A stretch of 64,000 nt of DNA from Halobellus limi (GTDB lineage Archaea; Halobacteriota; Halobacteria; Halobacteriales; Haloferacaceae): positions 1,612,001 through 1,676,000 of the forward strand of contig NZ_CP031311.1 of assembly GCF_004799685.1 (NCBI RefSeq), in the 5' to 3' direction. The notes below the pieces were generated by a model. It had not been told where the DNA came from and did no database searches. It saw only the letters and a list, made by a program, of their open reading frames with translations. Below are positions 54,213-58,381 of this stretch, piece after piece (the first letter of the stretch is position 1; every line of letters begins with the position of its first letter). The translations under genes were made by a program, and so were the position numbers.

Positions 54213-55217
54213 CTACGGCTTCGCCGCCTGGTACCTCGAACCCCGCGTCGAGCCCTGCTGCTCGATCAATCCGTAACGTTCCAGCGAGTCCAGATACCGC
54301 CGCCGCGTCGGTCGGGACTTCGGCGACGACGCTTGTTCCTCGTACTTGCGATGCAGTTCACTCGCTCCGATCTCGCCGGCCTCCGAGACGATCTCGTAGA
54401 GGAGTCGCTGGTGCGTCGAGAGCAACTCGACGTTCCGGTCGTGGACCTCCGTGGTCGCGGAGTCGCTGACGGCCTCGACGAGGCCCGGGCTGAGGTGATC
54501 GAGTCCTTCTTGCTCCGCTCGCTCCGCAGCCCAGCGGAGCAGCGCGATCGCCACTCGGGCGTCGCCGGCGGCGAGATCGGCGATCGTCCCGCACGTGCCT
54601 TCGTCCAGCACTCCCGGGGCGAGTCCGGCCTCCGCTCGTCCCGTGACGATGTCGACGATCTGCTCGTCGTGGTATTTCTTCAGCCGGACCGACGTCGCGG
54701 CACGAACGCGCGATTGAACGCGCATATCGACGTTCGAGAGGAATGCGTCCTCGTCGATGCAGATCATCGCGAGCGTCACGTTCGGCTGATCGTACAGCGA
54801 CAGCAGTGGTCCGTAGTCGTCGAGGACGTCGATCTCGTCGAGGATGAAGACGAGCTGGTAGTCGGAGTCGCGAATCCGGTCGAAATACCGGCTCCGCGGC
54901 GTCGATTCACGGCTGAGATCCCGACCGATTCGAGCGTCCCGGAGTAGCGTGTGCAAGACGCCCGTGGAGGTGTTCGCCGAGAGGCAGTTCACGTAGCCGA
55001 TCCGGATGTCGAGCGTCTGGCGTTCGAGCTGCTGGCAGACGTACTTCGCGAGCGTCGTCTTCCCAGCTCCCGATGGCCCGGTGATCAGCGTGTGTTCGCC
55101 GCTAAGATTATCCTCGATCGGCCGGAGACAGGACGAAATGAGGTCGATCTCGTTGTTCCGATGCTGGAGTTCTTGGGGAACGAACTCGTCGCGGAGCGCA
55201 CGGGCGTCACGGATCAT
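54213..55217 (-). CDS. Orc1/Cdc6 family AAA+ protein (accessory paralogue)
   Basis: 334 residues from ATG 55217 (MIRDARALRDEFVPQELQHRNNEI). AAA+ core: Walker A GPSGAGKTTLAKYV, Walker B LVFILDEIDVLD, sensor-1 region LAMICIDEDAFLS, and a Cdc6-type sensor-2/lid region LKKYHDEQIVDIVTGRAEAGL. The C-terminal winged helix is SKSRPTRRRYLDSLERYGLIEQQGSTRGSRY. Shorter than the main Orc1/Cdc6 initiators and set beside mobile genes, so it probably came with a plasmid or integrated element. A GTG 3 bp upstream is possible. No ORB motif was found by eye upstream. Confidence 0.86.
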   Translation of the reverse strand: MIRDARALRDEFVPQELQHRNNEIDLISSCLRPIEDNLSGEHTLITGPSGAGKTTLAKYVCQQLERQTLDIRIGYVNCLSANTSTGVLHTLLRDARIGRDLSRESTPRSRYFDRIRDSDYQLVFILDEIDVLDDYGPLLSLYDQPNVTLAMICIDEDAFLSNVDMRVQSRVRAATSVRLKKYHDEQIVDIVTGRAEAGLAPGVLDEGTCGTIADLAAGDARVAIALLRWAAERAEQEGLDHLSPGLVEAVSDSATTEVHDRNVELLSTHQRLLYEIVSEAGEIGASELHRKYEEQASSPKSRPTRRRYLDSLERYGLIEQQGSTRGSRYQAAKP

Positions 55218-55274
55218 CACTTCCCGCTACTGGATTCGTCGACTTGTAGGCGAGCCGTCCGGAGTGAAAGTAAT

Positions 55275-55364: not shown

Positions 55365-55538
55365 TCACTCGCCGCCGTCGGGGACGGCTTCGCCGGCGTC
55401 GCCGCCGAGATCGCGGAAGTACCGTTCGGAGTGATAGTCGTCCGGCTCGCCGCCGAGGTCCTCGGCGAGATCCTCACGGACTTCCTCGCGGAGTTCCTGG
55501 ATCTGCTCTTTCGCCTCGGCGATCTCGGCGTCGGTCAT
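55365..55538 (-). CDS. Small acidic protein, cassette gene 4
   Basis: 57 residues from the ATG at 55538, whose ATGA overlaps the stop of cassette gene 3; an earlier in-frame ATG (55559) would overlap by 25 bp. Sequence MTDAEIAEAKEQIQELREEVREDLAEDLG is helical/coiled coil, then a Gly/Asp/Glu-rich tail. Unknown function. It could be an adaptor or antitoxin for the proteins upstream. Confidence 0.6.
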   Translation of the reverse strand: MTDAEIAEAKEQIQELREEVREDLAEDLGGEPDDYHSERYFRDLGGDAGEAVPDGGE

Positions 55539-55912
55539 CGGTTGCTGATCCCGTGCCATTGTTCAAATCTCTCGGTAAATCGTTGGAGGTTCTTGGCTAA
55601 ATGGTCTTCGGCGTGATCGAGAGCGACGGCGGGCGGGAGCGGCGGCGTGACGAACTCGCTCCGGAACTTCCTGCCGTCGCGGTAGATATCGATGTGGAGG
55701 CCTTCCTCGGCGACGTCGTGGCCGAAGTCGCTCTCGGGGTCGTGATCGTAGCGAACGACCGTCTGCCACTCGCCGTCGTGGAAATACTCCAGTTGCACGA
55801 CGAAGCGTGTGACGTCGCCGCTGTCGGTGTCCCTGCAGATCCGCTCCCGAAGCGGACCTGGGAGGTCGCGCTCGTACACCCGGTCGTAGTCTCTGGGTTC
55901 GTCGTCTGTCAC
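55535..55912 (-). CDS. DUF7718-like protein, cassette gene 3
   Basis: 125 residues from GTG 55912 (VTDDEPRDYDRVYERDLPGPLRER). A beta-rich segment (RFVVQLEYFHDGEWQTVVRYDHDPESDFGHDVAEEGLHIDIYRDGRKF, 55646-55789) resembles, by eye, haloarchaeal families seen with small regulators in TA-like operons (DUF7718 as I recall). Pattern 'RYDHDPE...GHD...HIDIY' echoes the TumE-type core and could hold catalytic His/Asp. Overlaps genes 2 and 4 by 4 bp each. Confidence 0.6.
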   Translation of the reverse strand: MTDDEPRDYDRVYERDLPGPLRERICRDTDSGDVTRFVVQLEYFHDGEWQTVVRYDHDPESDFGHDVAEEGLHIDIYRDGRKFRSEFVTPPLPPAVALDHAEDHLAKNLQRFTERFEQWHGISNR

Positions 55913-56190
55913 GTATCCGAACCACCGATTTCGAGAACTGTATGATGTTCGATCGGGAGTTCCCTGGCGTCGAGGATCTCGGCGATCTCCGATGCCGTGA
56001 GCGACCCACGGTTGTCGGCAGCGCGGAGCAGCTCCTCGATCTTCCCGTTCCCGTAGCCGGCGACGTCGCCGCGCATTCGGCAGTAGTACCGCGCGGCGTC
56101 GTCGAGGGCCTTCGACTTGGCGTTCTCGCCGGTCGCTTCGAGGAGGTTCTCCCAGAGACGCTGTCGTTCGTCGGCGGATTCGATTCTCAT
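55909..56190 (-). CDS. Helix-turn-helix-like small protein, cassette gene 2
   Basis: 93 residues from ATG 56190. The first half (ERQRLWENLLEATGENAKSKALDDAARYYCRMRG) resembles a ribbon-helix-helix/'CopG-like' or VapB-like antitoxin. The second half (SLTASEIAEILDARELPIEHHTVLEIG) looks like a helix-turn-helix. No confident family. Probably the DNA-binding component of the cassette. ATGA overlap with gene 1 and GTGA overlap with gene 3. Confidence 0.6.
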   Translation of the reverse strand: MRIESADERQRLWENLLEATGENAKSKALDDAARYYCRMRGDVAGYGNGKIEELLRAADNRGSLTASEIAEILDARELPIEHHTVLEIGGSDT

Positions 56191-56453
56191 TTCTTGCACA
56201 ACCCCCTCGAATCGGCGTCGATCTCGACCGACTGAGCACCGCGCTCGATGGGCTTTTTTATAAACTCACGTGAGAAACGCGTGACGCCGAATGCCAGAGG
56301 CACTCCTTCCCCGCTGACTTTCGCCCAAGCCGAGTCGATCCGCTTGTGCAATTCGTGGGATCGGTTTTCGTCGACGTGTGACCGGCAGCGATTTTCACCG
56401 ATTCGATTGCCGGCCGAGGAGCTGTTTCTGTTCATATGGGATGGGTCGCTCAT
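56187..56453 (-). CDS. Small basic protein, cassette gene 1
   Basis: 88 residues from ATG 56453. Polar N-terminus rich in Asn/Ser/Arg, then SHELHKRIDSAWAKVSGEGVPLAFGVTRFSREFIKKPIERGA. Basic charge is unusual for a haloarchaeal cytosolic protein and suggests nucleic acid contact. Function not recognised. Its stop codon lies inside the ATGA start of gene 2. Its 5' end abuts the integrase remnant. Confidence 0.5.
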   Translation of the reverse strand: MSDPSHMNRNSSSAGNRIGENRCRSHVDENRSHELHKRIDSAWAKVSGEGVPLAFGVTRFSREFIKKPIERGAQSVEIDADSRGLCKK

Positions 56454-56454
56454 C

Positions 56455-56720
56455 GGCCTCTCCGAGCGGGACGTTCGCGATGTGGTCAAATGCACGGCCG
56501 AGCGCGGCCGAACAGACGGGTGACGAGGATTTCCGCCACGTCAGTCCGCACGATCTCCGGCGACGATTCGCCCAGCGGCTCCTCGTCGACGAGCAGGTGA
56601 ACCCGCGAGTGGTGATGCAGGCCGACGGGTGGGGGTGGGACTCGTTCCAGGCGATCGAGCCGTATCTGAGCGCGCCGACGCCCGACGTCGTCGAAGAAGT
56701 CTCGGGTGAACGTCAGTGGT
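56455..56720 (+). pseudogene. Tyrosine recombinase C-terminal remnant
   Basis: Frame 1 gives LSERDVRDVVKCTAER and then loses one base near 56505. Frame 2 continues AEQTGDEDFRHVSPHDLRRRFAQRLLVDEQVNPRVVMQADGWGWDSFQAIEPYL, the C-terminal part of a haloarchaeal XerC/D-like integrase (region 56513-56680). HDLRRRF holds the His and second Arg, and EPYL the likely catalytic Tyr. The whole N-terminal half is gone, so this is a decayed integrase from an older insertion. Confidence 0.7.
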
Positions 56721-56951
56721 CGTCAGTGAGCCGGAACGCGCCCTTGATCTCGACGAGCGGCAGGGGTCGGGATAACGGACGGACTGGCCAGCACCGGAGC
56801 CCTTCTGGAACCGGGCGCGGCTGTCGCAGACGAGACAGCGGTGGATCTGACTGTCCCCGTCGCCGAAGGTCCCGGCGAAGTCCCGGCTAACGTGGGCTCC
56901 ACAATGGCGACACGGAGATGGATCCTCTGCAGAACTCCTCGTGAGATCCAT
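56541..56951 (-). CDS. Small zinc-ribbon protein (DUF7563-like), 3' end uncertain
   Basis: From ATG 56951: MDLTRSSAEDPSPCRHCGAHVSRDFAGTFGDGDSQIHRCLVCDSRARFQKGSG (56790-56951), a CxxC...CxxC ribbon of the small family (about 50-60 residues) often found in haloarchaeal prophages. Beyond about residue 60 the frame reads into the complement of the integrase remnant and becomes Arg/Ser-rich. The real protein is therefore probably truncated or fused to noncoding sequence. Role unknown. Confidence 0.5.
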   Translation of the reverse strand: MDLTRSSAEDPSPCRHCGAHVSRDFAGTFGDGDSQIHRCLVCDSRARFQKGSGAGQSVRYPDPCRSSRSRARSGSLTTTDVHPRLLRRRRASARSDTARSPGTSPTPTRRPASPLAGSPARRRGAAGRIVAGDRAD

Positions 56952-57310
56952 CATCGACTACCACCCCGAGTTTTCGAAACCGATCGCCCGACGGCGCGGG
57001 CCCGCGTATCGTGACGGGATTGGCTCCGCTGAGAGCGCCACTCTCGAATCTCTGGAACGATCGAAACCGTGGAGAAGAGCCCCTACGAACGGATTCGGGT
57101 TAGTGTCGATTCGCGTTGTTAGACTATGGGCGCTGCAGGTTGGACCGTGCTACTCGTTCGCACGCTCACTCGTAGCCCGACCCGCAGCTCCGAACCCTCG
57201 CAGGCTCGGGATTCGTCGCGATTTGAACCCGCATAGCGAAGCCGGTGGGCATCTGCGAGCGATCAAACGCGCGCCCTGTTCTCTGCTCGTTGCCATTCGA
57301 TGACCAGACC
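56952..57310. other. Spacer before the integrase, with a tRNA 3'-end-like fragment
   Basis: No gene is seen. On the minus strand, CGGGTTCAAATCGCG (57212-57231) resembles a tRNA T-arm loop, but only three of five stem pairs form, and no acceptor or anticodon arm is present. It may be a degenerate attachment site left by integration, since the intact integrase begins 80 bp further on. Confidence 0.3.
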
Positions 57311-58381
57311 ATGGTAACACAGAACACACTCGAACCCCTCGAACCATCAGACGCAGTCGAATTGTATCTGAACAACCGGGAAACCGATGGAGCGGCCGCC
57401 GGCACAGTCCGTGCTCACCGCCACCGCCTAAACCACTTCCTCGACTGGTGCGACGAACAGGAACTCGACAACCTCAACGACATCACTGGTCGAGATCTTC
57501 GCTCGTTCAAAGTTTGGCGAACCAAGAGGAGCAAGGCAGGCTCTCTCGCAAGGTCGACTCTGAAGAACAATATGGACACGCTACGCAAATTCATGCGATT
57601 CTGCGAGAGTATCGAAGGTGTCCCCAGAGACACTCATATGGCGGTCACGAGTCCAACCCTCTCCGAAGACGACGCCAACCACGACGTAGTGCCCTACGAG
57701 ACCCAAGAGAAGATTCTGGAGCGACTCAACCGCTTTCAGTTTGCGAGCTTCGAGCACGTGTTCGCACACCTGCTTCACGAATGCGGATTCCGCGTCGGTG
57801 CCGTTCGTAGCCTCGACCTGAAGGACTTCCAGCCAGAACCAATGGACCTACCTGACGGAACACGTGTTGGCCCACACATCGAGACCCACCACCGGCCGAA
57901 GACTGACACCCCACTGAAGAACGGAAAAGACTCCGAGCGACTGGTCGCTCTCAAAGACCACAGCGTCGAGATTCTCAACGACTACATCGAGTACCAGCGC
58001 CCCGATGTCGAAGATGAGTATGGCCGCAAACCCCTCGTGGTAAAGCCACGAGCAAGCAAGCGTTCATCGACACAGACGCTACGAGACATCAGCTACGCGC
58101 TCACACGACCGTGTGAATATGGGGAAGAGTGTCCGCACGACTTGGAACCGGATAACTGCGAATCCGCTCGGATGGTCAACTTCGCTTATGGATGTCCGTC
58201 GAGTATGTCCCCCCATCCGTGGCGGCGAGCGGTGATGACGCACTGGCGAGCGAACGACGTACCAATTGACGTTGTCGCGGATCGGTTCGACGTGAGTCCG
58301 AGTGTGATCGAGAAGCACTACGACGAACGGACGAAGCAAGGAAAAATGGAGCAACGCCGGAGGTACTACGACGACCTATAG
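57311..58381 (+). CDS. Tyrosine recombinase/integrase (intact)
   Basis: 356 residues from ATG 57311. SAM-like core-binding domain (about 15-105: PSDAVELYLNNRETDGAAAGTVRAHRHRLNHFLDWCDE) and catalytic domain with first Arg in HECGFRVGAVRSLDL, the HxxR block SPHPWRRAVMTHW, and the Tyr in VIEKHYDERTKQGKMEQRR. A Cys/His insertion (RPCEYGEECPHDLEPDNCESARMVNFAYGC) is typical of the haloarchaeal branch and may bind zinc. Codon use is less GC-extreme than upstream genes. Its 5' side is probably near one end of the inserted element. Confidence 0.9.
   Translation: MVTQNTLEPLEPSDAVELYLNNRETDGAAAGTVRAHRHRLNHFLDWCDEQELDNLNDITGRDLRSFKVWRTKRSKAGSLARSTLKNNMDTLRKFMRFCESIEGVPRDTHMAVTSPTLSEDDANHDVVPYETQEKILERLNRFQFASFEHVFAHLLHECGFRVGAVRSLDLKDFQPEPMDLPDGTRVGPHIETHHRPKTDTPLKNGKDSERLVALKDHSVEILNDYIEYQRPDVEDEYGRKPLVVKPRASKRSSTQTLRDISYALTRPCEYGEECPHDLEPDNCESARMVNFAYGCPSSMSPHPWRRAVMTHWRANDVPIDVVADRFDVSPSVIEKHYDERTKQGKMEQRRRYYDDL

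Follow-up and report, generated by a model that had tools for sequence, protein, structure and literature searches.

Analysis of four short ORFs on the minus strand of a 64-kb stretch of Halobellus limi DNA (the window) revealed a composite locus that holds a two-gene cassette, a conclusion in which we have high confidence. The locus very probably joins regulatory DNA (ORF 1), a small self-standing regulator-like gene (gene 2) and two overlapping genes that are mobile as a pair (genes 3 and 4) and encode a DUF7718 protein and a short acidic protein (Table 1). We favor, with somewhat better than even confidence, the explanation that this mobile pair behind gene 2 is a candidate toxin-antitoxin (TA) cassette in a three-part arrangement. 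A sequence-only reading of the same DNA had treated the four ORFs as one unit. That unit was wrongly drawn: the true unit comprises genes 3 and 4, probably a TA-like cassette under a borrowed regulator, and the TA-like function that had been proposed is a good reading for these two genes but not for all four ORFs.

Table 1. Features of the four-ORF locus, with positions counted from the first nucleotide of the window
Feature	Position	Strand	Description
ORF 1	56187..56453	-	judged no gene; spans the gene 2 promoter/operator region
Gene 2	55909..56190	-	93 aa; regulator-like, probably DNA-binding (RHH-like by motif only)
Gene 3	55535..55912	-	125 aa; DUF7718 (PF24839, E = 5e-31); candidate toxin
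Gene 4	55365..55538	-	57 aa; short, acidic; DUF7718 partner; candidate antitoxin
Distal TTGCACAA site (as read on the - strand)	56344..56351	.	160 nt ahead of the gene 2 start
TATA-like element TTTATAAAAAA	56254..56264	-	read from the sequence
Proximal TTGTGCAA site	56194..56201	-	directly ahead of the gene 2 start codon
Probable integrase C-terminal remnant	56401..56700 (3' limit approximate)	+	frameshifted; overlaps the 5' part of ORF 1 in antisense

The four ORFs lie where the sequence-only reading had placed them, and so do the three overlaps, ATGA, GTGA and ATGA. The GC-rich window contains 60 pairs of ORFs with an NTGA overlap (ORFs of at least 50 aa, every internal start allowed), so one overlap by itself is weak evidence. 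The overlap of ORF 1 with gene 2 is trivial, ORF 1 being non-coding, and the GTGA overlap of gene 2 with gene 3 is real and confined to this window. The overlap of gene 3 with gene 4 is conserved far beyond chance: a gene 4-type ORF overlapped DUF7718 by exactly 4 bp (ATGA or GTGA) in 36 of 59 DUF7718 loci. The four-gene order had no instance among 391 haloarchaeal genomes, and the co-conservation expected of all four ORFs held for genes 3 and 4, whereas gene 2 homologues occur singly. Searches of the window for tRNA and Rfam RNAs found none.

Genes 3 and 4 behave as a conserved pair. Gene 3 is indeed DUF7718-like, scoring 107 bits against a cut-off of 25, and alignment places gene 4 in a conserved family of its own. 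The two proteins co-diverge, with correlated distances (r = 0.77, Mantel p ~2e-4), and the overlapping pair was found in Halorientalis, Natronomonas, Halorubrum, Haloferax, Halonotius, Halovenus and Natrarchaeobius and on plasmids; loci in well-known species include VNG_RS10975/VNG_RS13465 on H. salinarum pNRC200 and ABY42_RS18450/ABY42_RS19555 in Hfx. gibbonsii. In the plasmid-borne and named-genus pairs both genes are annotated merely as hypothetical proteins. DUF7718 is patchily distributed (109 of 391 genomes) and occurs on mobile elements, with 20 plasmid records and three IMG/VR contigs; a search of phage records found none. The pair thereby combines two traits of type II TA systems, a conserved overlapping operon and a patchy spread that includes mobile elements. 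Neither gene matched a known toxin family or a PADLOC system, and no mention of DUF7718 or of the TA-like cassette was found in the literature searched, in keeping with the sequence-only reading, which had suggested that it may be unreported. Gene 4 is not universal, since divergent subfamilies of DUF7718 lack a recognisable copy, and in some pairs TAA replaces TGA, so that the usual gene 4 start codon is gone. The 55-kb Halomarina halobia plasmid NZ_CP119995.1 carries four DUF7718 copies (L186, L187, L201 and L203), one of them frameshifted.

Comparison of DUF7718 loci showed that the pair is exchanged between loci as a sharply bounded block. In loci L097 and L104, DNA identity is 88-100% between about -400 and +150 relative to the gene 3 stop, a stretch that opens shortly ahead of gene 3 and closes with gene 4, and is at background on both sides of it. 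Their near-identical pairs stand behind different genes, HicB-like in one locus and winged-helix in the other. The upstream genes of various loci include RHH_1, MazE-like, winged-helix and HicB-like DUF7387 genes, in several cases overlapping gene 3 by 4 bp; in many loci a recognisable regulator upstream of the pair is absent. In L102 an antitoxin-like gene and the cassette are separated by a PIN-like toxin gene reduced to its first 14 codons, as if the block had taken that toxin's place. The HicB-like protein of L097 and L103 has a DLDASDLE-type tail that the winged-helix protein of L104, although unrelated, also has; this C-terminus is apparently chimeric and was brought in with the cassette.

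Gene 4 also persists where gene 3 is lost. Among 57 gene 4 copies in the loci examined, 23 lacked an intact gene 3 (six partial, 17 with no gene 3 body), a proportion that is no unbiased rate of loss since 20 orphan gene 4 loci were selected for the absence of a nearby DUF7718 match. In eight of the 17 loci all that is left of gene 3 is clearly a C-terminal stump that leads into the gene 4 start, and five more show this weakly. Loss of gene 3 with retention of gene 4 is what a toxin role for gene 3 and an antitoxin role for gene 4 would predict. Several orphan gene 4s adjoin ParE or PIN toxins; gene 4-like ORFs were seen downstream of a ParE-type toxin (L243), a PIN domain (L246) and a divergent DUF7718 (L253).

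The gene 2 family, whose proteins have about 90 residues, is present in 38 of 391 Halobacteria genomes. Its conserved alignment pattern is MRIxxTDxRERxWExLxEATGExTKSKALDxAAxYY, and in every other haloarchaeal genome examined this regulator-like family is standalone. Its start resembles a ribbon-helix-helix (RHH) motif. A Pfam search gave no family above cut-off and no RHH match, a profile search of PDB sequences gave no RHH match and nothing significant, and the single-sequence model (pLDDT 50.6) was too poor for use. No family member was found in the other DUF7718 or gene 4 neighbourhoods examined, or in viral contigs.

The region ahead of gene 2 has the features of a control region. The window contains two TTGTGCAA matches against 0.17 expected in 64 kb, both in the gene 2 control region and 150 bp apart. 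In 27 of 30 family members TGTGCA stands no more than 16 nt from the start of gene 2, and most of the 30 also have distal sites near -135 and -160; in most gene 2 homologues the distal site falls at -156 to -163 and a TATA-like box stands at about the window's distance. These strictly placed TGTGCA sites suggest an autoregulated promoter with putative operators. Ahead of nearly every member of the gene 2 family lies a TGCACA / TGTGCA / TGTGCA array of strict spacing, about 160 bp long (for example window 56190-56390, L050-L079, and genomes G009 and G010); exact distal pairs numbered seven and five in two genomes and zero in the reversed control of those genomes, and some array copies stand away from the gene 2 places located in the genome survey.

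ORF 1, which the sequence-only reading took for a gene encoding a basic protein, is judged to coincide with this control region, and it was rejected as a gene for its lack of a family match or codon-position bias, its odd composition and its position. Searches against Pfam, NCBIfam and PHROGs found no family match; the product is basic with a non-haloarchaeal composition, where those of genes 2-4 are acidic, and GC3 is weaker than in genes 2-4. Comparison with the two closest relatives, L051 and L052, showed substitutions spread over codon positions in the ORF 1 frame (13/9/17 and 22/31/29, respectively) and a coding pattern in gene 2 (3/2/9 and 11/4/32). With the closest relative, the ORF 1 region does not become alignable until about -200 of gene 2. 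The ATGA start of gene 2 recurs in four of 27 other homologues with a located start; the remainder have ATGC, so the upstream stop is absent there.

The surroundings of the locus contain further mobile-element and TA-like genes. The probable integrase remnant matches Phage_integrase (PF00589, E = 4e-4, under the curated cut-off) and has an HDLRR motif in its translation. In 56401-58381 it is joined by a DUF7563 gene and by a complete tyrosine recombinase, an association that suggests the boundary of an integrated element; GC content falls from ~0.68 to 0.54 beyond 57 kb. Directly behind the cassette, the product of 54213-55220 is an AAA protein of Orc1/Cdc6-like type that falls just short of the TIGR02928 cut-off and matches PHROG 7998 strongly (E = 3e-57). 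At 53045-54157, on the opposite strand and 1.4 kb away, a TumE-type gene (E = 0.0018, under the Pfam cut-off) comes directly after a DUF7342 winged-helix gene, the two forming a second TA-like pair.

We propose that gene 2, which looks autoregulated, stands in front with its own promoter and putative TGTGCA operators, and that the block of genes 3 and 4, placed directly behind it and overlapping its stop codon, would be read from the gene 2 promoter. Across haloarchaea the block moves as one and stands behind interchangeable regulator or antitoxin-type genes, and it appears to borrow their promoters. Gene 3 would most likely be the toxin and gene 4 the antitoxin that neutralises it, with stop-start coupling of their translation, and transcriptional control would fall to the upstream DNA-binding gene, here gene 2, giving a three-part TA arrangement. 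For genes 3 and 4 themselves, we consider a TA mechanism slightly favored. Counting against the cassette reading, gene 2 is an unusual partner for a DUF7718 pair. More tentatively, and at less than even confidence, the pair could be a promoterless plug-in TA cassette, made of a DUF7718 candidate toxin, for which no PDB fold match was found, and an acidic candidate antitoxin. Such a cassette would recombine behind the regulator genes of other, often TA, operons, replacing resident toxins and taking over promoters and DNA-binding proteins.

In the AlphaFold model of gene 3 (mean pLDDT 91.6), four strands and a short helix are followed by two further strands and a pair of C-terminal helices. Alignment of DUF7718 showed invariant F37, E42, W49, H65, H73 and D75 and nearly invariant R54, D56, H57 and D66, which are natural candidates for a functional site. 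Comparison of the model with the PDB gave no usable match (best Foldseek E = 0.22, best VIA Z = 6.0), nor did Foldseek against BFVD (best E = 0.028), and a fold absent from these match lists is not thereby ruled out for DUF7718. Profiles of DUF7718 and TumE found nothing significant among PDB sequences.

The sequence-only reading had heard in gene 3 an echo of the nearby TumE-type protein, and this stood for the motif and the fold outline but not for the profile comparison. TumE is a translation-targeting toxin without a confident PDB match, in which two helices pack on a seven-stranded antiparallel sheet, and its antitoxin is the DNA-binding TumA (PMC10584680). The DUF7718 pair is similarly a small two-gene unit; its RYD...H pattern is in register with that of TumE in a profile alignment, and the gene 3 model likewise combines two C-terminal helices with antiparallel-looking strands and has no confident PDB match. 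In contrast, the DUF7718 partner is a short acidic protein encoded downstream, the model has six strands against seven in TumE, and gene 3 had no match to Pfam TumE (PF20126, DUF6516) at E up to 1. Profile-profile alignment by hhalign of DUF7718 with haloarchaeal TumE was not significant, at a probability of 0.6% with the first alignment and 1.4% (P = 0.037) with an enlarged one, so homology with TumE is not supported by profile comparison and gene 3 was not filed under TumE. A divergent TumE toxin of the DUF6516 superfamily, a question of family and not of layout that is compatible with the cassette reading, is doubtful. No TumE was found in viral contigs.

Other explanations of the locus assign the ORFs different roles. 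The chain of 4-bp overlaps had been taken to imply that all four ORFs are subunits of one stoichiometric complex, which is extremely improbable given that ORF 1 is non-coding regulatory DNA, that gene 2 elsewhere never adjoins DUF7718 and that co-conservation is limited to genes 3 and 4. Alternatively, gene 3 could be a toxin whose antitoxin is the upstream DNA-binding protein, here gene 2, leaving gene 4 as an accessory or a translational spacer. The antitoxin-like genes just upstream in many loci (RHH, MazE-like, HicB-like or winged-helix), several with the 4-bp overlap, fit this assignment, as does the precedent of TumA (PMC10584680). Nevertheless, near-identical gene 3 proteins follow unrelated upstream genes, gene 4 follows gene 3, and the gene 2 family occurs without DUF7718 in almost all genomes, making the assignment distinctly unlikely. 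Marginally less unlikely is a mobile accessory pair with another job, such as a nucleic-acid-binding regulator or an anti-element function. The lack of a match to known toxin families or PADLOC and of a confident Foldseek fold match would agree with such a pair, as would the few copies on contigs classed as viral, whereas the TA-gene surroundings, cassette exchange, patchy plasmid spread and loss of gene 3 are all TA-like and argue for the candidate TA cassette.

Several known systems share features with this candidate TA cassette. Three-component TA systems such as omega-epsilon-zeta encode a separate DNA-binding regulator, an antitoxin and a toxin in one operon. The locus described here similarly has a DNA-binding regulator, as predicted for gene 2, separate from the candidate antitoxin and toxin, but the regulator swaps between unrelated families and the constant part is only the two-gene block. 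Antitoxin families of type II TA systems (HicB-, MazE- and RHH-type) lie upstream of the DUF7718 pair in several loci; in contrast to those systems, the usual toxin is not found at the DUF7718 position; in L102 one PIN start breaks off at the cassette. Gene 3 clearly belongs to PF24839, well over the curated cut-off, whereas the Pfam entry gives no function, and the present analysis adds a partner gene and cassette-like behaviour. Should gene 3 prove toxic and gene 4 neutralise it, a function-less haloarchaeal family present in ~28% of the sampled genomes would become a TA family, one for which our searches found no solved structural relative, and the cassette would be a clear natural example of the rewiring of a TA operon through regulator swaps.
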